A DNA stretch of 64,000 nt from Candidatus Zixiibacteriota bacterium (GCA_030605835.1 JAUWHO010000045.1:1-64000), one strand, 5' to 3'. Shown: positions 3,271 through 48,316, numbered from the stretch's first letter. Notes: a model not told the origin generated them from the sequence alone. Made by a program: numbers and translations.

Positions 3271-3858
3271 ATGAGCGAGGAAAAGAAAGTATCTAAAGTC
3301 AAGTTTCTCCAGCCTTGGTACACAACATTAATACAGGCTGCAGCAGCCGTGGGCACAGTAATACTATTCATTATCATGTTTCAGCAACTACAAGATATTA
3401 GGCATGAGCAAGCCGTATCCTTGCGACCTTACATACATCTAGAGATAGAGCCGGCGTTTGGCGTAGTGCAGCTAACTGATTGGAGAAGCGTGGGCGGACA
3501 AACAGAGATATGGGTCCTGGGATATTGGCTTACCAATGTGGGCAAGTACCCAGCCAAGAATGTGTTTTATAAAGCGGATTGGAGTAACTCGTCAGAGATA
3601 GAGTCTCCCACGAAGTTTGACAACAATAAGCCTATCACAGTGAGTCCAGGGATGACGATGATTGCGACACAGAAAGAGTTAGCTAGGTCGGAAGTCCTTG
3701 GGGTACAGGACAGAGGCGATAGAATTTATAGACATGTCTACGTGAAGTACCAGGATGGTGACGGAAACGAATATTACTGGAAGGCCACTTGGATTCTGTC
3801 TGAATACGACGTGGGTTCTCCTATTAGATGGCACTTGCTGACAAGTGAAGGTACCTGA
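3271..3858 (+). CDS. Hypothetical single-pass membrane protein
   Basis: 195 residues that I do not recognise. A hydrophobic segment at about residues 18-40 (TLIQAAAAVGTVILFIIMF) forms one transmembrane helix after a short charged N-terminus. The rest (residues 50-195) is probably outside the membrane and looks beta-rich: YWLTNVGKYPAKNV followed by HVYVKYQDGDGNEYYWKATWI. The topology resembles small membrane-anchored proteins common on plasmids and genomic islands. The DNA is visibly more AT-rich than the flanking genes, which hints at transfer. The start is supported by AAGGAG 10 nt upstream. Confidence 0.6.
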   Translation: MSEEKKVSKVKFLQPWYTTLIQAAAAVGTVILFIIMFQQLQDIRHEQAVSLRPYIHLEIEPAFGVVQLTDWRSVGGQTEIWVLGYWLTNVGKYPAKNVFYKADWSNSSEIESPTKFDNNKPITVSPGMTMIATQKELARSEVLGVQDRGDRIYRHVYVKYQDGDGNEYYWKATWILSEYDVGSPIRWHLLTSEGT

Positions 3859-4046
3859 GGGCAGCTGCATTCTAATGTTCAATTCCTGTCCCCATCCCTA
3901 TCACCGCAAATGAGTTAGCCTGTCCTACCTCGCGCCTTTCCTACTGTTGAGGTGGGTTGCCCAGCGTATCGCCCCGTCAAGCAATCAGTGTAACACAGCA
4001 GCCCCACAGCAGTGAGGAATAGACATATCTCTCCACAACACAACCT

Positions 4047-5807
4047 CTAGCTTCGTGTCTGTGCCTTCTCAATCTTCGCCCAGGTGTCTCTCAGTGTCAC
4101 GGTGCGGTTGAATACCAGCTTGTCGTCCTTCGAATTGGGGTCAACGCAGAAATAGCCTTGTCTTAAGAACTGGTAGCGGGTTCCCGGTTTTGCACCCGCA
4201 AGACCCGGTTCGACCTTGCACGACGTCAGCGTTTCCAGCGAGTTTGGATTCAGATAGTCCTTGAAGTCCTTGCCCTCCTCCACGTCGCCGGGGTCTTCCT
4301 TTACGAAGAGATGATCGTATAAACGGACCTCGGCCTCCATGGCGTGAGCCGCAGAAACCCAGTGCAGCGTCCCCTTGACCTTCCGCGCGGCTTTAGGTCC
4401 ACCGCTTTTAGTCTCCGGGTCGTAACTGCAGTGGAGCTCCACCACTTCGCCGGTCTTCTCGTCCTTAACGACGCGCTCGCACTTGATGATATAGGCGTGC
4501 TTCAGTCGCACCTCCCGGCCAGGTGCTAAACGGAAAAACTTCCTTGGTGGATCCTCACGAAAATCCTCGCGCTCGACATACAGCAGCCGCGAAAAAGGAA
4601 CTTTTCGGGTGCCCATGGAGGGATCCTCGGGATTGTTGACGGCCTCCAATTCCTCCACATGGTCTTCCGGATAGTTGTCTATGATAACCTTAAGCGGACG
4701 CAACACCGCCATGACCCGCGGAGCTTTTTTGTTCAACTCTTCACGGAGGCAGTGTTCCAAGACCGCGATATCGACCGTGCTGTCCCGCTTGGCGACTCCG
4801 ATGCGCTCGGAGAATGTTCGGATAGATTCTGGAGTGTAGCCGCGTCTCCTCAAGCCCGAAATTGTCGGCATTCTAGGATCGTCCCATCCGTTGACATGAC
4901 CCTCTTCCACCAACTGCAAAAGCTTTCGCTTGCTCATTATAGTGTAGCTGAGATTGAGGCGGGCAAACTCGATCTGCTGGGGATGGTAAACATTCAACTG
5001 GTCGAGGAACCAATCGTACAGCGGGCGATTGTTTTCAAATTCGAGAGTGCAAAGGGAATGGGTGATCTTCTCGATAGAGTCCGAAAGGCAATGGGTGAAA
5101 TCGTACATCGGGTAGATGCACCACTTATCGCCGGTTCGGTGATGGGAGGCATGCTTGATGCGGTAAATGGTCGGATCCCGCATGTTCAGATTTCCGGAGG
5201 TCATGTCGATTTTCGCCCGAAGAACCCGGGCGCCGTCCGGAAATTCACCGGCGCGCATGCGCTCGAATAAATCCAGGTTCTCCTCGACCGAACGGTTGCG
5301 ATAGGGACTCTCCCTACCGGGTTCGGTCAAAGTGCCGCGGTATTGTCTGATCTCCTCGGCGCTCAGATCGTCAACGTAGGCCTTGCCCTCTTTCACTAGT
5401 AGAACCGCGTAATTGTACAACTGCTCGAAGTAGTCGGAAGCATAGTACAGACGGTCCTGCCAATCGAAGCCAAGCCAGCGGACATCCTCCATGATCGATT
5501 CCACATACTCGACTTCTTCCTTCGTGGGATTGGTGTCGTCGAAACGCAGATTGCACAATCCGTCATATTGTGCAGCGATACCGAAACTGAGGCAGATCGC
5601 TTTAGCGTGTCCGATGTGCAGATAGCCGTTCGGCTCCGGCGGAAACCGGGTATGAACTCGACCGCTGTATTTGTCGGTCCTCAAGTCTTCATCGATGATC
5701 TCCCGGATGAAATCGGAGGGAGTAGTAGAAGCGGTCGTGGTTGTCTTCGCACTTCCCTTCACTTTTTTCTTTTCGTTGTTGCCCGGTTCACTCTTGGGCG
5801 ATATCAC
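4047..5807 (-). CDS. glnS: Glutamine--tRNA ligase
   Basis: 586-residue class Ic aminoacyl-tRNA synthetase that charges tRNA-Gln with glutamine. The HIGH signature is at residues 64-67 ([12 protein letters not shown]) and the MSKRK variant of KMSKS follows near residue 290 ([12 protein letters not shown]); [10 protein letters not shown] is typical of GlnRS rather than GluRS. The C-terminal half is the two-barrel anticodon-binding domain (RDTWAKIEK at the end). About 30 N-terminal residues form a Lys/Thr/Ser-rich extension before the conserved [12 protein letters not shown]. The GTG start at 5807 follows an AGGAAGG Shine-Dalgarno. A GlnRS implies direct glutaminylation; it cannot be seen here whether GatCAB is also present. 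Confidence 0.96.
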
Positions 5808-38067: not shown

Positions 38068-40723
38068 ATGACCATGGAGGTAGGTTATCTAAGTCGTTTC
38101 GGTATTTCCGAAAAGGTTTTACCCTCCTGGAGGGAGTCGGGTTACACCGAGCTTTTACCGCTGCAGGTGAAGGCGATTGAGGAGGGAGAACTGTTAGGGG
38201 AGGAAAACCTGATAATTTCAGCCCCGGCCTCCTCCGGCAAGACTTTTTGTGCCGAGATAGCCACCATCGGGGCTATCTCCAAGCTGAAGAAGGTGGTTTT
38301 CTTGGTTCCCCTCAAGGCGGTGGCAGAGGAGAAGTTCCTTGACTTCAGGAGCAAATATGAACCGTTAGGATTGAAGGTGGTGATCTCCAGTGCCGACCGG
38401 TCTGAGTTCGACGAGATGATCACGAAAGGTCAGTTCGACCTCGCCGTCATCATCTACGAGAAGTTCAACCGCTTTTTAGTGAAAAACATAAACCTCCTGA
38501 AAACCCTGGATCTGGTGATAATCGACGAACTTCAGATGCTGGGGGATGAAAAGAGGGGAGAGGTTCTCTCTCTAATCCTGACAAAAATATCGGAAGGGGC
38601 TAATGCTCCCCGACTGCTGTGTCTGGCACCGCTGGGAGGAGACTTAAGAGAGGTTGCCTCTCTCATCGATGCCCGGGGTCCTCCACGAGAGAAATCGGCC
38701 GGTGGAGCTCTTAAGGGGGGTGTTGGAGTCCGGAGAGTTCAGGTATCGGAAGTTCAACGACCTCTCGGAAGCGTCCGAACTGCTGTTCCCACATGAGGAG
38801 GTTGAAGAGGAGGGGTCTTACCCTCACCTCAACGGGTTTTTCGCTGCGGTGGAGAAGTTCACCTCAAGCGGGGAGCAGGTTTTAGTCTTCCTTAAATCCA
38901 GACCTGACACCATCGTCTGTGCCCGGGCCCTGGCCGAGAGGTTGAAGTTGCCGCCGGCCACAAATTCCCTGGAATGTCTGAAGGACTTGGAGGAGACCAC
39001 TCTGTCGCAGAGTCTGGTCACCTGCCTGCAGGCGGGATGTGCCTTTCACAATGCGGACCTGAGTTTGGAGGAGAGGTTTTTGGTGGAGAGCGGTTTTCGC
39101 GCTGGCGACATTCGGCTTCTCTGCTCCACCACCACCCTGGCGATGGGAGTGAACCTCCCCGCCAAGAACGTCTTTCTGGAGACACAGAAATACTTCCACA
39201 GTCCCGATTGTGACCGCTCTGTCCTGGTGCCGATCAGCAGGGGAGAGTTCGAGAATATGTCCGGTAGAGCCGGTCGTTTGGGGGCGGAGGCGGAATTCGG
39301 GCGCTCCCTGGTGATCGCTCCGAATAAGCTCCAGAGCGAGCTGTTGTGGGACAAGTATATCCGTGGCAGCTCCGGGGAGTTGTCCACCACGAAAAGAACT
39401 CTGTCTCTGCCGGAGATTATCCTGGATCTGGTCATCTCCGGCTCGGCAAGGGATTTCCCCGCTCTGCAGAGGCATCTAGAGAAGATGGGACAACTCTGCG
39501 GAGGCGAGGAAGTCTCCACAGCCCAGATCGAGAATAGCCTGAGCCGGCTTTTGGAACTTGGGGTTCTGCGGACAACATCCTCCGGATTCAACGGGACGAA
39601 GTTGGGGGAGGCCTTCGCCGCCTCGGGACTGAAGCTGGATACCGGACGGGCGATATTGAAACTGCTTGAGGAGGGAGAGGGCTTCACTCTGCCCGACTGG
39701 GTCTTCCACCTATGTCAGACACCGGATGGCGACGAGAACTACCTGCCGGTGAGAGATTTCGAGAAGAGGCGGGGTCATTTCCGCGGGGCCATAGAGGCGG
39801 AGGTTTCATCACCAGAATTGTTGGGGCTTATAAGTGGCGAGATTGTCGGCAACACCAGAGAGATCCGCCACTTGAAAGTGGCTCTGATTCTCTCCGACTG
39901 GACAAGCGAGATGACCACTATTGAAATCGAGAAGAGGTATCAGGTCTTATCGGGGACGATCCGGAGGATTGCGGAGAGGACCAGCTGGCTTCTGAGGGGG
40001 GTGGTCTCTCTGGGAGAGGCCAAAGCGATGGAGGAACGCTACCTCAGAAGGATTGAGGAGTTTGCGATCTCCCTGCTTTTCGGGATCAGCCCCCCGGGCT
40101 TCGGGCTTGCCACTCTCAGGCTTCCGGGGATGGGGAGAGATTTCCTCTGGCGGTTGAAGGAGTCTGGGATAACTAACCTGCCTTCGGTTTTGGAGGCTGA
40201 CCTCGACCTTCTCAACAAGCTTCTTCCCGAAAGGCTGGCCTTGTCGCTCAAGCAGGCAGCAGAGGAATCAAAAGAGGGAAAAAAGAGGCGAAGGGTTTCC
40301 CCTTTCTTCTTTGGAACCACTCCGTTGAGTTCTGAGCGAAAGGAATTGAATAGGGAGAGTTCAAAGAACTTGCAGGAGACTCAAGTTCCGCATGCGGGCA
40401 TAGCCAGATTGAGAATCGAGGGCAAAGCGGTAAAGAATCGCTTCCTGGTGGAGGTGAACGGGAAAAGTCTGCTTCTGACACACAAGCTGTACCACTATCT
40501 TCTGAAGCTGGTGGGGGCATTGTACAAAAAGGAGGGAGGCTGGATCAATAAGTTCGATTTCGAGGGGGGAGACAATCAATCCCGTTATCTCTGGAGATTG
40601 AAGAGAGCCTCAGAACCACACTGCCCCAAGGGCAGCCTCATAATCGACAACAACCGTATGGGAGGCTATCGCCTAAATACTGGCTTGAAGAACATCCTCA
40701 TTTCGGAGGAGCTTCTGACTTAG
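38068..40723 (+). pseudogene. Ski2/Hel308-like SF2 helicase, interrupted by one frameshift
   Basis: Two overlapping frames together make one ~880-residue helicase. Frame one (38068 to about 38680): Q-motif region YTELLPLQVKAIEEG, Walker A APASSGKT, DELQ box (LVIIDELQMLGD) and LCLAPLGGDLREVASLIDA. Frame two (about 38670 to 40723): GVLHERNRPVELLRGVL, STTTLAMGVNLPAKNVFLETQ (motif V), FENMSGRAGRLG (motif VI), a winged-helix part and a helix-hairpin-helix (LRLPGMGRDFLWRLKESGI). The break is a one-base shift at the run of four G at about 38676; removing one G restores a continuous protein. This may be a sequencing or assembly error rather than a dead gene. Predicted 3'-5' helicase acting on branched DNA or RNA. 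Confidence 0.8.
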
Positions 40724-41809: not shown

Positions 41810-44800
41810 ATGATGGGAACATCTGAAGCTAGACGAGAAAGATCTAAAATTGTGTTTATGGCCACCCTTCTGGCCGGTGCTTGCCTTCTCACTTACTTTT
41901 TTCATGAGGTACTGAAGTACGAGGGATTCTATACCCATCTATTCTATATCCCCATAATTCTGGCATCTGTTTGGTGGAAGAAAAAGGGCATAATTATCAG
42001 TCTTTTTTTGGCGGGACTGCTGATTTTGAGCCACATTTTCTTTAGAACTGATGTGGCGATTCTTACTGACCTCCTTCGAGCTTCTGTGCTCATAGCTATT
42101 AGTGTTTTTGTCGCCATATTGAGTGAACATATTGCGAAGGCGAAGGAGGCGCTGCGGGGGAGCGAGGAGCGCTTCTCTGTGGTGCTGCACAACTCCAGAG
42201 ATATGGTTTACAGACTTCATCCCAAGACCGGCAAGTTCGATTATGTCAGCCCGTCGGCAATAGAGCTAACCGGCTTCACCCCGGGGGAGTTAACTCTTAT
42301 GGGTCTTGAAGGGGTTATAGAGAGGATAGACCCTGAGGATAGAGACCGTTTTATGGTGCACTTCGAGAATGTGCTCAAACAGACTTTCGAGGACGGTCTG
42401 GCGCCGACAATCGAATACCGCTGGAAGCATAAAGAGGGTGAATACCGATGGTTCAGTGATAACCGCGCCGTCATTCGCGATACAGACGGCAACCCGGTGA
42501 GCCTAATCGGCAGCGTCCGGGACGTCACCGAGCAGAAGGTGGCGGAGTGGGCTTTATGGGAATCGGAGAAGAAGTACCGCACCATGGTTGAAACCGCCCA
42601 GGAGGGAATCGGGATAACTTCGCTCGGGGAGGAGCTTGTTTTCGTCAACAAGGCATTTGCCTCCATATTGGGATATGAGCCCTCAGAGCTGGTGGGCAGA
42701 AACCTCCGCGAGTTCGTGACCGAGGAACGGTTCGAGGCCTTCCAGATGGAGACCGGGAAGAGACAGTGGGGTACCTCCGGCGGCTACGAAACCGAGATGC
42801 GCCATCGGGACGGAAGCCACCGCTCTCTTCTGGTCTCGGCCTCTCCCCTCTACGATCGCGAGGGTAACTACAATGGCACCCTCGGGATGGTGACTGACAT
42901 CACCGAGCGCAAGAAGGCGGAGGAGGCTCTGCGCGAAAGGGAAAAGAGGTATAGAGACACAACGGAGAATACCTTGGAGTGGATTTGGGAGGTTGACGCC
43001 AATGGCAAATTCACTCACACCAGCCCTGTTGTCGAGAAGATCTTAGGTTATAAACCGGAGGAGGTACTTGGAAAGCATTTTTATGACCTATTCGATGCTG
43101 AAGACCGCGAAGAACTGAAGAAGGTGGCGTTTGAAGCCTTCGCCAAAAAGGAGTCGTTCCGCGAGTTCATAAACCGTAATGTGCACAAGAACGGTGAAAC
43201 AGTTTGGCTCTCGACAAGTGGAGTTCCCATACTCGATGAAGCAGGAAACCTTCTCGGATATCGAGGTGCTGATACGGACATCACCGAGCGCAAGAAGGAG
43301 CAGGAGATTCAGTCGGCATTATTCAGGATTTCTCAAGCAGTCACCTCCACGGGCAACCTGGAGGAATTGGTACAGACTGCCCACGAAGTGCTGGGTGAGT
43401 TGATTGACACCACCAATTACTTTGTTGCCCTCTATGATGCCGAGAAGGAAGAGTATTCCTTCCCCTATAGTGTTGACCAGGACGAGGAAACAGATTTTTC
43501 GACACGTCAACTCAAAAAAAGCCTCACCGACTATGTCCGCAGAACTGGAAGGCCGCTTCTGGTAGATGAAGAAACCAACAAAAAGCTAATGGAAAAAGGT
43601 GAAGTAGAGTTAGTAGGGAGACCGGGACCCATCTGGCTCGGTGTGCCCTTGAAGACCCCGCGGGGTGTCATTGGGGTTGCCGTAGTTCAACACTACTCAG
43701 ATCCGAGCGCTTACTCAGAGGCTGATCTTGACATCCTGTCATTTGTCTCCGGGCATCTTGCAGTGGCAATTGAGCGTAAGCGCGCGCAGGAGGAGCTGCA
43801 GGAGAGTGAAGAGAGATATCGGGACCTGTTTGAAAACGCCAGTGACCTTATTCAGAGCGTGGCCCCGGACGGTCGCTTCGTATACGTCAATCGAGCGTGG
43901 AGGGAGGCCCTAGGTTATAGCAAGGAGGAAATCGCCGGGCTCAACATGTTCGACATCATCCACCCCGATAGCCGAGCGCACTGCACGAAGGTGTTTCAGC
44001 GTGTGCTCTCCGGCGAACAGGTTCATAAGGTTGAAGCTCTGTTCGTTGCGAAGGGGGGGAACGAGATCCTGGTTGAGGGGACTGCCAACTGCAAGTTCGT
44101 AGACGGAAAGCCGATTGCCACCAGGGGCATTTTCCGTGATATCACCGAGCGCAAGCAGGCGGAGGAGGCGCTGTGGGAAAGCGAGGAGAAATACCGGCTG
44201 GTGAGTGAGAACATCCCCGTTGTGGTTTATTCAGCACTGCCTGATGAACATTCTACTACTACTCTAATTTCCGGAAGAATCATGGAGCTTACCGGATATT
44301 CTCATCAGGAATTTGTGGAACATGTGGAGTTGTGGACACAGATCATTCATCCGGATGACCGAGAGTATGTGTGGAAAAAAATCGAAGAGCACCGTGAGAA
44401 GATGGCACCGCTTGATGTCGAGTATCGGATAACAACTAAGGACAATACCGTCAAATGGATAAGAGATAGAGCGACACCAATGGTTGACGAAAATGGGCAG
44501 CTCATCAGAATCAACGGTTTCATGGAAGACATCACCGAGCGCAGGAAGGCGGAGGAGGAGGTCCGGGAAGCGATGGAGTTCAGAGAGCGTCTTCTGGCTT
44601 CGATGCATGACGGATTGTCTGTGCTCGACAAGGACGGGGTACACATTGACGTTAACCTCGCACTGTGCGAAATGACGGGCTTCTCCAGAGAGGAACTGAT
44701 CGGTGTTGGGCCGCCGCACCCTTACTGGGCCACGGAGTCCTTGGAAGATACTAAGAAAGCATTCGAGAAGACCGTGCGTGGTGAATTTCAGACCTTCGAG

Positions 44801-47800
44801 TTGACCTTCATGCGCAAGCAGGGGGAGCGCTTCCCAGTCCTGGTCAGCCCTTCCTGGTTGAAAGACGAGCACGACAACGTTCTGTGTTACTTCGCTACCT
44901 TCAAGGACATCACCGAGCGCAAGCGGGCGGAGGAGAGAATCAAACAGCAGAGCGAGTTCTTGAAGAGCACAATAGAAGCTCTTGCTCATCCATTCTATGT
45001 CATAGATGCCAATGACTACACGGTCAAGATGGCAAATTCAGCCGCGGGCTTTGGTGCTCTGTCCGAGAAGTCAACCTGCTATGCTCTCACTCATAGACGC
45101 GAGGAACCGTGTGAAGGAGAAGAGCATCCCTGTCCCCTTAGGATCGCCAAGGAAACCAGGAAACCCGCGATCGTAGAGCATACTCATTATGATGAAGATG
45201 GGAATGCCAGAATCTTCCAGGTTCACGGCTATCCGATCTTTGATGATGAAGGAAACGTTGTCCAGCTTATCGAGTACACCCTTGACATCACCGAGCGCAA
45301 GAAGGCGGAGGAGGCAGTACAGAAGACCGCGGCGGAGTGGGAGACCACATTCAACTCCATCAGCGACTTGGTTTCTGTTCATGATAACGATTTCAGGTTT
45401 ATCCGGGTCAATAAGGCTTTTGCTGATCTGCTCAAGATGAAGCCGGAAGAGCTGGTGGGCAAAAAGTGTTACCAGGTGGTTCATGGGAGAGAGAGCCCTC
45501 CCGCAGATTGCCCTCATAAGCAGCTGCTGGAGAGTAAGAAAGCAGTGACCTCGGAATTCTTCGACCCTCATCTGGGAGCTTATCTGCAGGCGTCTGCCTC
45601 ACCAATCTTTGACGAAGATGGCGAGGTTGCCGGCTGCGTCCATATTGTCAAGGACATCACCGAGCGCAAGAAGGCGGAGGAGGCGCTGCGGGAGAGCGAA
45701 GAACGTTTGAAAGAAGCGCAGAGAGTCGGAGCAGTTGGCGACTGGGTGTTCGATGTCCAAACCCAGCAGATCACCTGGTCGGAACAAGTCTACAGGCTCT
45801 TCGAGCGTGACCCGGCAAAGGGTCCTCCAGACTATGAAGAGAACATGGCATACTATTACCCGGAGGATTCAAAAAAGCTGCAGGAGCAGGTGCGCCGGGC
45901 GATAGAATTTGGGGAGGAGTCTGATGCTGACTATCGTTTGAAGCTGCCAAGCGGGAAGTCTGTCTATCAACGTGGTCTCATCAGGACAATAAGAGACGAA
46001 AATGGAAAGATTGTGAAGCTGTTTGGCACGGTGCAAGACATCACCGAGCGCAAGCGGGCGGAAGAAGAATTATCAAAGGAAAGAGCCCTGCTTAAGGCCA
46101 TCATTGATAAGATTCCGGTATTGCTCACCCAGTATGACCCCGACACCAATATGCTGTATTTAAATAAAGAGTTTGAAAAAATAGTTGGCTGGAAAACCGA
46201 AGAAGTTAAAGATATCGACCTGATGGAAAAGGTATATCCCGACCCGGATTACCGCAAACAAGCCATGGAGTACATGCAAAAAGCCAGTACGGAATGGCGT
46301 GAATTCCGGGTTCAGTCCAAATCCGGAAAAATAATTAATTCAGAATGGTCAAACATTCGTCTGGATGATGGGACCCAGATAGGTATCGGAATAGACATCA
46401 CCGAGCGCAAGAAGGCGGAGGAGGCGCTGCGGGAGAGCGAGGCTGAATACCGTTCCCTGTTCGAGAATATGCTGGACGGTTTCGCTTACTGCAAAATGAT
46501 TGTTGACGAGAACGACAAGCCCATAGATTTTGTGTACCTTGAAGTCAACGAGGCCTTTGAGAGATTGACGGGGCTGAAAAGGGAAAATGTCGTCGGGAAA
46601 AAAGTAACGGAGGCCATACCGGGCACAAGAGATTCACATCCGGAGCTGTTGGACACATATGGCAAAGTTGCCTCCACCGGTAAAGAGACCAGATTTGACA
46701 TCCACTTCGAGCCTTTAGACATATGGCTCTCCATTTCTGTCTATTGTCCAAGAAAGGGTTATTTCGTTGCTGTTTTTGACAACATCACCGAGCGCAAGAA
46801 GGCCGCGGAGGCTGTGAGAATCTCAGAAGAGCAGCTTAGAGCCATCTTGGACAGCGCCGACGATATTATCTTCGCTAAAGACCGGGAGGGGCATTACACC
46901 CGAGTCAATTATGCGTGCGCCCGACTACACGGAATCTCCGAAGAGGAGTTCGTCGGCAAGACAGATTTCGACCTCTTTCCAGAAGAGCAAGCAAGACACT
47001 CAGCCGAAATCGACCGTCAGGTGCTTGTGGAGGGAAGAACCTTCACCGGCGAATACGACAGACAAATAAGAGGCAAGACACTGACATTGAGCATGGTCAA
47101 GACGCCTCTGCACGGACCCGATGGTTCAACAATCGGTTTGTGTGGTATTGCCAGGGATATAACCGAGCAAAAAAGCTTGGAGGAGCAGTTCCGCCAGGCG
47201 CAGAAGATGGAGGCTCTGGGAACTTTAGCGGGGGGCGTTGCTCACGATTTCAATAATCTTCTGGGAGGCATTCTCGGCTACGTCGGCCTGATGAAAGGGG
47301 ACTACTCACCTGAGGAGAAACACTACGCTATGTTAGAGCTGGTTGAGAAAGCCAGTATGAGAGCTGCAGAGCTGACCAACCAGCTCCTGGCCTTCTCCAG
47401 AAAGGGGAAATACGAGCTACGAGCGGTTGACCTGAACAACAGCGTCGAAGATGTGTTGAAGCTGCTCGGCAGGACTCTGGACAAAAACATTGAGATCGCA
47501 ACCGAGCTTCAGGAGAAGCTTCCCTCCGTTGAAGGTGACCCCGGCCAACTCGAACAGGCCATCATCAACCTCTGCGTAAACGCTGCCGAAGCTATGCCCG
47601 GCGGCGGGAAGCTCCAGTTAGAGACCAGAGTGGTGGCCTTAGAGGAGGAATTTGCCCGCAAGTATCTCGGCTCCGACCCCGGGGATTACGTCCTTTTGAG
47701 CGTGTCCGACACCGGCATCGGAATGGATTCTGAAACCCTGTCCCGGATGTTTGAGCCCTTCTTCACCACCAAGGAGATGGGAAAGGGGACCGGTCTGGGG

Positions 47801-48316
47801 CTCTCGACGGTTTACGGGATCGTCAAGAATCACGGTGGTTACGTCGATGTTCGCAGCCAACCCGGCAAGGGCAGCACCTTTGATATCTATCTGCCGGTGT
47901 CGAAGAAACAGTTCACGCCTCCGCGACCACGGGCGGCGGAACTGCAGACCGGCCACGAGACCATCCTGGCGGTGGATGACGAGGAGATTATCCGAAGCCT
48001 CTTAGAGGAGACGCTGAAGAAGCTTGGTTATAAGGTGATTCTGGCCAATGATGGAGAAGAGGCGGTCCAGATTTACGAAGAGAGAAAGGATGAGATCGAC
48101 GCCGTCATCATCGATATGATCATGCCCCACCTGGGGGGACGTGAGACCTTCCGGGAGATAAAGATGCGCAACCCAGACGTCAGAGTGCTCCTCGTAAGTG
48201 GTTTCTCCCAGGACGGCGCCGCCCAGCGGATCTTAGATGAAGGTGTCAGAGGTTTCATTCAGAAGCCCTTCGAGCTGGTGGAGCTGAGCCAGAAGCTGCG
48301 GCAGGTCCTTGACTGA
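41810..48316 (+). CDS. Giant multi-PAS hybrid sensor histidine kinase
   Basis: 2168 residues. Three to four transmembrane helices in the first ~100 residues form a MASE-like membrane sensor. Then 12 PAS domains and one GAF domain (residues ~500-660, between PAS3 and PAS4) are joined by linkers of the DITERKKAEEALRESE type. PAS7 and PAS8 carry Cys/His groups (CYALTHRREEPCEGEEHPCPL; CYQVVHGRESPPADCPHKQ), which could bind metal or sense redox. The kinase core has the H-box GGVAHDFNNLL, N-box NLCVNAAEAM, G-boxes DTGIGMD and GTGLGL and F-box FEPFFTTK. A C-terminal receiver domain carries the phospho-Asp in AVIIDMIMP and the conserved Lys in IQKPFE. No DNA-binding output is attached, so phosphate probably moves to another regulator. 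Confidence 0.95.
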   Translation: MMGTSEARRERSKIVFMATLLAGACLLTYFFHEVLKYEGFYTHLFYIPIILASVWWKKKGIIISLFLAGLLILSHIFFRTDVAILTDLLRASVLIAISVFVAILSEHIAKAKEALRGSEERFSVVLHNSRDMVYRLHPKTGKFDYVSPSAIELTGFTPGELTLMGLEGVIERIDPEDRDRFMVHFENVLKQTFEDGLAPTIEYRWKHKEGEYRWFSDNRAVIRDTDGNPVSLIGSVRDVTEQKVAEWALWESEKKYRTMVETAQEGIGITSLGEELVFVNKAFASILGYEPSELVGRNLREFVTEERFEAFQMETGKRQWGTSGGYETEMRHRDGSHRSLLVSASPLYDREGNYNGTLGMVTDITERKKAEEALREREKRYRDTTENTLEWIWEVDANGKFTHTSPVVEKILGYKPEEVLGKHFYDLFDAEDREELKKVAFEAFAKKESFREFINRNVHKNGETVWLSTSGVPILDEAGNLLGYRGADTDITERKKEQEIQSALFRISQAVTSTGNLEELVQTAHEVLGELIDTTNYFVALYDAEKEEYSFPYSVDQDEETDFSTRQLKKSLTDYVRRTGRPLLVDEETNKKLMEKGEVELVGRPGPIWLGVPLKTPRGVIGVAVVQHYSDPSAYSEADLDILSFVSGHLAVAIERKRAQEELQESEERYRDLFENASDLIQSVAPDGRFVYVNRAWREALGYSKEEIAGLNMFDIIHPDSRAHCTKVFQRVLSGEQVHKVEALFVAKGGNEILVEGTANCKFVDGKPIATRGIFRDITERKQAEEALWESEEKYRLVSENIPVVVYSALPDEHSTTTLISGRIMELTGYSHQEFVEHVELWTQIIHPDDREYVWKKIEEHREKMAPLDVEYRITTKDNTVKWIRDRATPMVDENGQLIRINGFMEDITERRKAEEEVREAMEFRERLLASMHDGLSVLDKDGVHIDVNLALCEMTGFSREELIGVGPPHPYWATESLEDTKKAFEKTVRGEFQTFELTFMRKQGERFPVLVSPSWLKDEHDNVLCYFATFKDITERKRAEERIKQQSEFLKSTIEALAHPFYVIDANDYTVKMANSAAGFGALSEKSTCYALTHRREEPCEGEEHPCPLRIAKETRKPAIVEHTHYDEDGNARIFQVHGYPIFDDEGNVVQLIEYTLDITERKKAEEAVQKTAAEWETTFNSISDLVSVHDNDFRFIRVNKAFADLLKMKPEELVGKKCYQVVHGRESPPADCPHKQLLESKKAVTSEFFDPHLGAYLQASASPIFDEDGEVAGCVHIVKDITERKKAEEALRESEERLKEAQRVGAVGDWVFDVQTQQITWSEQVYRLFERDPAKGPPDYEENMAYYYPEDSKKLQEQVRRAIEFGEESDADYRLKLPSGKSVYQRGLIRTIRDENGKIVKLFGTVQDITERKRAEEELSKERALLKAIIDKIPVLLTQYDPDTNMLYLNKEFEKIVGWKTEEVKDIDLMEKVYPDPDYRKQAMEYMQKASTEWREFRVQSKSGKIINSEWSNIRLDDGTQIGIGIDITERKKAEEALRESEAEYRSLFENMLDGFAYCKMIVDENDKPIDFVYLEVNEAFERLTGLKRENVVGKKVTEAIPGTRDSHPELLDTYGKVASTGKETRFDIHFEPLDIWLSISVYCPRKGYFVAVFDNITERKKAAEAVRISEEQLRAILDSADDIIFAKDREGHYTRVNYACARLHGISEEEFVGKTDFDLFPEEQARHSAEIDRQVLVEGRTFTGEYDRQIRGKTLTLSMVKTPLHGPDGSTIGLCGIARDITEQKSLEEQFRQAQKMEALGTLAGGVAHDFNNLLGGILGYVGLMKGDYSPEEKHYAMLELVEKASMRAAELTNQLLAFSRKGKYELRAVDLNNSVEDVLKLLGRTLDKNIEIATELQEKLPSVEGDPGQLEQAIINLCVNAAEAMPGGGKLQLETRVVALEEEFARKYLGSDPGDYVLLSVSDTGIGMDSETLSRMFEPFFTTKEMGKGTGLGLSTVYGIVKNHGGYVDVRSQPGKGSTFDIYLPVSKKQFTPPRPRAAELQTGHETILAVDDEEIIRSLLEETLKKLGYKVILANDGEEAVQIYEERKDEIDAVIIDMIMPHLGGRETFREIKMRNPDVRVLLVSGFSQDGAAQRILDEGVRGFIQKPFELVELSQKLRQVLD

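Follow-up and report, generated by a model that had tools for sequence, protein, structure and literature searches.

In multi-PAS hybrid histidine kinases, a DIT motif has been described as coupling each PAS domain to the coil that follows it (PMC3183031), and recombination between histidine kinase genes is known to change their domain composition, for example in the hybrid kinases of Azospirillum (PMC4618731). Here we analyse a gene of this kind, which we call W, in a 64,000-nucleotide (nt) stretch of a Candidatus Zixiibacteriota bacterium (GCA_030605835.1, JAUWHO010000045.1:1-64000; hereafter, the window). W is a hybrid sensor histidine kinase with a PAS array, its activity being predicted from its domains: the open reading frame (ORF; 41810-48316, plus strand, 2168 amino acids) runs from a short hydrophobic N-terminus through three PAS domains, a GAF domain and nine further PAS domains to HisKA, HATPase_c and receiver domains. 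Several of the PAS domains score above the Pfam cut-off, and the kinase core is well matched (HisKA 33.0 bits against a cut-off of 26.9, HATPase_c 85.4, Response_reg 85.7). W presumably integrates many cytoplasmic signals, passing them along a chain of coiled coils to a single kinase and receiver. W resembles the described multi-PAS kinases with DIT motif and signalling-helix linker in its PAS domains ending in DIT, its heptad coil and its HisKA, HATPase_c and receiver domains; it differs from them in carrying 12 PAS domains per chain and in linker DNA far more uniform than is the norm in its class.

The sensory half of W is very probably a mosaic of PAS modules, in which cassettes reaching from one linker to the next have been moved by recombination within the linkers. 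The shuffling of histidine kinase domains is already known, and what W adds is an unusually legible variant of it, read at the linker DNA. In the account cited above (PMC4618731), shuffling is described at the level of domains; here the joint is mapped to linker DNA, and hybrid linkers and the gain or loss of single modules between congeners go beyond that description. How bacterial signalling kinases acquire new inputs is mostly deduced from charts of their domains; in the present case, the joint itself is legible at single-base resolution. A search of the open-licence literature turned up no paper in which PAS shuffling is traced to the DNA of the linkers. Zinc-finger arrays, too, possess a short conserved linker between fingers. 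In mammalian KRAB zinc-finger arrays, the number of tandem modules changes fast between close species (PMC3126818), and this gain and loss of fingers is the closest analogue in behaviour to what we describe. The analogy is one of working and not of membership: KRAB arrays are eukaryotic DNA-binding fingers, whereas the modules considered here are bacterial sensors of ~125 codons, which move from gene to gene and across families as well.

Linker DNA and PAS cores of gene W

The peptide DITERKxAEEAL, a DIT motif followed by a heptad coil, closes most PAS domains of W. At the DNA level, GACATCACCGAGCGCAAG occurs in 11 copies at no more than three mismatches in the window, every one of them inside W, as opposed to 0.1 copies in shuffled sequence. 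Copies are spaced 357-390 nt apart (861 nt where they span the GAF domain), and because every spacing is a multiple of three, a crossover between any two linkers would keep the reading frame. The longest tract that two linkers share is 47 identical nt (gene nt 3844-3890 and 4585-4631). An earlier note on this DNA, made from sequence alone, had described about ten linkers alike even at third codon positions, and this is borne out: across ten linkers of ten codons, synonymous-codon identity is 0.916, compared with 0.45 when codons for the linker residues are sampled at random according to the usage in 21 window genes and 0.42 when W's own cores supply the usage (p ≤ 0.001). For DITERK alone, the value is 0.968 against an expected 0.43. 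The 12 codons flanking the linkers are at chance on either side (before, 0.36 versus 0.34; after, 0.38 versus 0.37). The joint DNA of the W copies is more alike than codon bias allows, controls included.

This uniformity is unusual in the class. With a z score of ~14, W is the extreme of linker homogeneity, most unselected multi-PAS genes of the class showing no excess; its linker 30-mer is rare in the class, with nine matches in its own genome, while no other among 133 has more than six, and the other PAS genes of its own genome carry different linkers.

The cores between the linkers differ as widely as the note had claimed. We found no DNA similarity among them, self-blastn of the gene returning linkers only, and at the protein level they are mostly less than ~30% identical over their length. 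The array, first placed at 42130-47190, starts at ~42170 and comprises 12 PAS domains plus one GAF. The core at about 46085-46390, which the note had called clearly richer in AT, is indeed the lowest in GC content among the PAS cores (PAS10, 46079-46393; GC 0.425, and 0.486 at third codon positions, GC3), but PAS5 (0.451 and 0.491), PAS11 and PAS3 lie close to it, which makes this weak evidence. GC3 does vary among modules (chi-squared p=2e-5), but the spread (standard deviation 0.088) is only slightly above that among ordinary window genes (0.073). Composition was accordingly rejected as a sign of foreign modules, PAS10 being the extreme of a continuum.

Shared modules and the position of their joints

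The joint most directly legible in W involves a kinase of the same genome, K (1111 amino acids, contig C20), which has dCache and HAMP domains, three PAS domains and a kinase core unlike that of W. Its first two PAS domains adjoin one another and match PAS4 (78.7% DNA identity) and PAS8 (85.9%), two modules that in W are separated by three others. Traced base by base, the K PAS1|PAS2 joint follows the PAS4/5 joint of W up to DIT and the PAS7/8 joint thereafter, so that the switch point falls within the DITER linker; the two genes share modules in a different order, with the breakpoint in a linker. Synonymous divergence (dS) is 0.96 (0.61-1.67) for PAS4 and 0.34 (0.20-0.55) for PAS8, against a species value of ~0.5, and since the two differ, a single copying event is insufficient. 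The modules of W thus do not share one history. Between W and K, the linkers have diverged at synonymous sites about as much as the cores (proportion of synonymous differences 0.27-0.52, over few sites), which argues that linkers are not frozen between genes. As a side observation, contig C20 carries two sensor kinases in tandem whose kinase cores are related (L060:911-6240), the upstream one without PAS domains and the downstream one with three between the HAMP coil and the kinase core.

The only other genome of the genus has a syntenic K orthologue together with its upstream neighbour. Across sensor, HAMP and coil, the two K genes are 83.7% identical in DNA (dS 0.49); inside GAGGAACGCAAGCAG, identity drops from ~0.85 to ~0.2, and unrelated PAS modules follow. 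The homology between K and PAS4 of W starts within about ten bases of this drop, so that the position of a single joint is delimited by three sequences. The congener's contig stops in the second PAS domain, and the comparison covers the left-hand joint.

The nearest homologues of W's other modules are likewise scattered over genes and genomes (PAS3 60% in G033, GAF 64% in G055, PAS7 54% in G077 and G032, PAS9 46% in G088, PAS11 53% in G012), in whose genes W-like modules stand in scrambled order; for PAS5, PAS6 and PAS10, no close relative was found among the class loci compared. For most modules of W, what these comparisons show is mosaic ancestry and not a dated exchange.

Close orthologues in the class differ in module number in the pairs L156/L157, L079/L185, L084/L096 and L187/L194. 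The congeneric L156 and L157 differ by the presence or absence of exactly one 375-nt module between flanks that are 88% and 95% identical, and the L157 linker is a hybrid, following the left linker of L156 up to GCCGAGGACCAA and its right linker beyond. In the congeneric pair L084/L096, one sees both a tandem module duplication of 393 nt (L084 array ORF nt 1231-2030) and one module replacing two, with all joints at linkers. L079 and L185 (2159 and 1510 amino acids) retain four common blocks at 85-95% identity, displaced by several whole modules. L185 also has a module that L079 lacks in the corresponding position and whose counterpart in G106, of a different family, is 89.8% identical in DNA. 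This match takes in one PAS module together with its linkers (array ORF nt 1871-2291 in L185, nt 1751-2171 in L078), and outside it the two genes share nothing comparable. From sequence, this looks like transfer of a single module.

For a class-wide test, 620 modules in 108 non-redundant multi-PAS ORFs were located by a hidden Markov model (HMM) built from the W modules, and the ends of DNA homology that lie inside genes were set against the positions of the module junctions. PAS HMM junctions were used in place of a DITxR regular expression, which misses variant linkers (42% of breakpoints at linkers). At 75% identity or more, all 40 of 40 breakpoints fall at module junctions (expected fraction 0.35, p ~1e-18), and at 70% or more, 85 of 92 do. 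Modules might merely differ in conservation without any recombination, an explanation excluded by keeping only those ends at which homology resumes at another offset: 28 of these 32 ends lie between -20 and +80 nt of DIT (expected 0.30, p 2e-11), the four exceptions being weak self-matches in one gene, and the offset shifts are multiples of three in 28 of the 32 cases. The joints vary in position across linker and coil, from -10 to +48 nt relative to DIT. They are seamless, the switch points lying in shared sequence with no remnant or duplicated pieces of linker.

Proposed mechanism and rival explanations

The unit of exchange would consist of the DITERK heptad coil, a PAS core and the next DITERK. 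The sequence DITERKxAEEAL would be constrained because it couples each PAS domain to the next coil, and the DNA similarity thereby kept (~20-47 bp) would allow a homologous joint within the gene, with other kinases or with transferred DNA. Crossover or slippage between any two linkers would then delete, duplicate or replace whole modules in frame and leave a hybrid linker; repeated events would homogenise the linkers, the cores between them keeping unrelated histories. The agent would be ordinary homologous recombination or replication slippage. For RecA-dependent recombination in E. coli, the minimum length usually quoted is shorter than the 30-47 bp tracts of identity in W. By the same logic, the number of W modules would be expected to vary in the population, altering which signals are integrated. 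More tentatively, one may picture the PAS arrays of the phylum as an open cassette system, in which ongoing conversion keeps linkers uniform as a standing joint, PAS numbers and orders vary within a population, and cassettes cross genes and families.

The claim of the earlier note that modules were exchanged or inserted by recombination in the linkers is supported by the switch between W and K, the whole-module differences between congeners, the breakpoints at linkers and the scrambled homologues. Several findings weigh on the other side. DNA-level partners exist for PAS4 and PAS8 only, the other modules showing mosaic ancestry at the protein level alone. The 40 breakpoints stem from ~16 gene pairs and are not independent, so that the p values are overstated. 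Many of the genomes appear to be draft assemblies, and some joints could be assembly errors. In the one congener, which is 52% complete, we found no W orthologue that would bear on variation in module number, and no match to the synteny of the W neighbourhood. Most multi-PAS genes of relatives lack linker homogeneity (z ≥ 3 in 3 of 47 unbiased ORFs), and linker exchange is therefore not always homogenising. Linker homogeneity and detected exchange are weakly correlated (p=0.02 over all loci; 0.066 without pattern-sourced loci), and because of this, the step from exchange events to homogenised linkers is the least secure link in the chain.

Could codon bias and amino-acid conservation alone make the DNA of DITERKKAEE look identical, with no recombination at all? 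Class-wide, the same peptide motif does prefer ACC (0.68) and CGC (0.55), and ACC is also preferred at the invariant Thr of relatives' kinase cores (0.63-0.69 at two of three sites), which makes a mild class-wide bias ordinary. Furthermore, the 47-nt linker is 80-99% identical (mostly 80-95%) to sequences in Sinorhizobium, Azospirillum, Microvirga and haloarchaeal plasmids (e.g. NC_003078 1159413-1159459), a resemblance in linker DNA that spans very distant lineages. The maximum of 1000 simulated draws, however, is 0.62, below the observed value; CGC, which makes up 18% of Arg codons, and GCG, at 24% for Ala, are minority codons and yet nearly invariant in the W linkers, GCG serving for only 29% of linker Ala in relatives; and codon-pair context (T-E, E-R) shows no comparable lean towards ACC/CGC. 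Codon bias, codon-pair context and invariant-residue bias were thus rejected for W, where this account, which also leaves the breakpoints and hybrid linkers unexplained, is very unlikely; they do account for part of the mild class-wide preference. Selection on the linker nucleotides themselves, for translation speed, mRNA structure or a protein-binding site, with shuffling a separate matter of illegitimate recombination filtered by selection, is unlikely to a lesser degree: the same linker occurs in other families with AT-rich cores (L078 GC3, linker 0.83 and core 0.40), and selection for working proteins would retain joints at linkers anyway, but the W-K linkers diverge at synonymous sites about as the cores do, ordinary multi-PAS genes show no such constraint, and the joints are seamless, in frame in 28 of 32 offsets and placed inside shared sequence.

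A third account would have a single PAS module amplified in tandem not long ago, its copies then diverging quickly in their cores. Such an amplification has a precedent in the duplication in L084, but this account is hard to credit given that the W cores share no DNA similarity, are so distant in protein sequence and nearly all have their closer counterparts in other genes and genomes. Equally improbable is a site-specific recombination or other programmed rearrangement at the linkers, such as short, near-identical and regularly spaced repeats might suggest: the repeats are direct ones that code for a conserved peptide, no recombinase was found by Pfam among the eight neighbouring window proteins tested, and the scatter of the joints around DIT is unlike a fixed site.

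If linker recombination is what assembled W, a ten-codon linker doubles as a recombination site that preserves both frame and coiled-coil register, and each exchange yields a potentially working sensor. Sensor evolution would thereby become directly testable, and the linkers would supply natural design rules for chimeric PAS kinases; a warning also follows, in that multi-PAS genes are unfit for treatment as single-history orthologues.

Feature map and side observations

Table 1. Features of gene W, in window coordinates.
Feature	Position	Strand	Basis or remark
Multi-PAS hybrid histidine kinase gene W, 2168 aa (amino acids)	41810..48316	+	ORF; Pfam PAS/GAF/HisKA/HATPase_c/Response_reg
N-terminal hydrophobic (membrane) region and first coil start	41810..42136	+	hydrophobic stretches in translation; GC 0.416
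PAS1	42170..42520	+	Pfam; best homologues 40-43%, in three other genomes
Linker PAS1/2, DVTEQK, most divergent copy	42521..42562	+	motif search
PAS2	42563..42895	+	Pfam; homologue search
Linker PAS2/3, consensus GACATCACCGAGCGCAAGAAGGCGGAGGAG	42896..42937	+	repeat and motif search; codon test
PAS3	42938..43276	+	Pfam; best homologues 60% (G033), 53% (own-genome kinase, contig C37)
Linker PAS3/GAF	43277..43318	+	repeat and motif search; codon test
GAF domain	43319..43774	+	Pfam; ≤64% to GAFs of other genomes
PAS4	43817..44137	+	78.7% DNA identity with first PAS of kinase K (contig C20), dS 0.96
Linker PAS4/5, left parent of K PAS1|PAS2 joint	44138..44179	+	motif search; base-by-base trace
PAS5	44180..44527	+	Pfam; homologue search
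Linker PAS5/6	44528..44569	+	repeat and motif search
PAS6	44570..44905	+	Pfam; homologue search
Linker PAS6/7	44906..44947	+	repeat and motif search
PAS7	44948..45283	+	Pfam; 54% to modules of G077 and G032
Linker PAS7/8, right parent of K PAS1|PAS2 joint	45284..45325	+	motif search; base-by-base trace
PAS8	45326..45652	+	85.9% DNA identity with second PAS of K, dS 0.34; class runner-up 41%
Linker PAS8/9, 47 nt identical to linker PAS10/11	45653..45694	+	repeat and motif search; self-blastn
PAS9	45695..46036	+	Pfam; homologue search
Linker PAS9/10	46037..46078	+	repeat and motif search
PAS10, lowest GC among PAS cores (0.425; GC3 0.486)	46079..46393	+	composition
Linker PAS10/11	46394..46435	+	repeat and motif search; self-blastn
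PAS11	46436..46780	+	Pfam; 53% to module of G012
Linker PAS11/12 (NITERK)	46781..46822	+	repeat and motif search
PAS12	46823..47155	+	Pfam; homologue search
DITEQK joint to kinase core, not homogenised: GATATAACCGAGCAAAAA	47156..47191	+	sequence
HisKA and HATPase_c kinase core	47192..47914	+	Pfam
C-terminal receiver domain	47957..48313	+	Pfam

PAS7 and PAS8 (44948-45652) contain the Cys/His motifs CYALTHRREEPCEGEEHPCPL and CYQVVHGRESPPADCPHKQL, which resemble a metal or Fe-S site in a PAS domain, and the copy of PAS8 in K carries a matching one.

Among the class assemblies, the contigs of L075, L076, L082, L084, L086, L099, L106 and L171 end in or beside multi-PAS genes; repeated modules may break these assemblies, and PAS arrays may be under-counted there.

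Elsewhere in the window (38068-40723), an ORF at 38068-38796 overlaps a second one, at 38654-40723, that is read in another frame. The pair lies around a helicase with an archaeal-type domain 4 (Pfam) and is possibly a single frameshifted gene.

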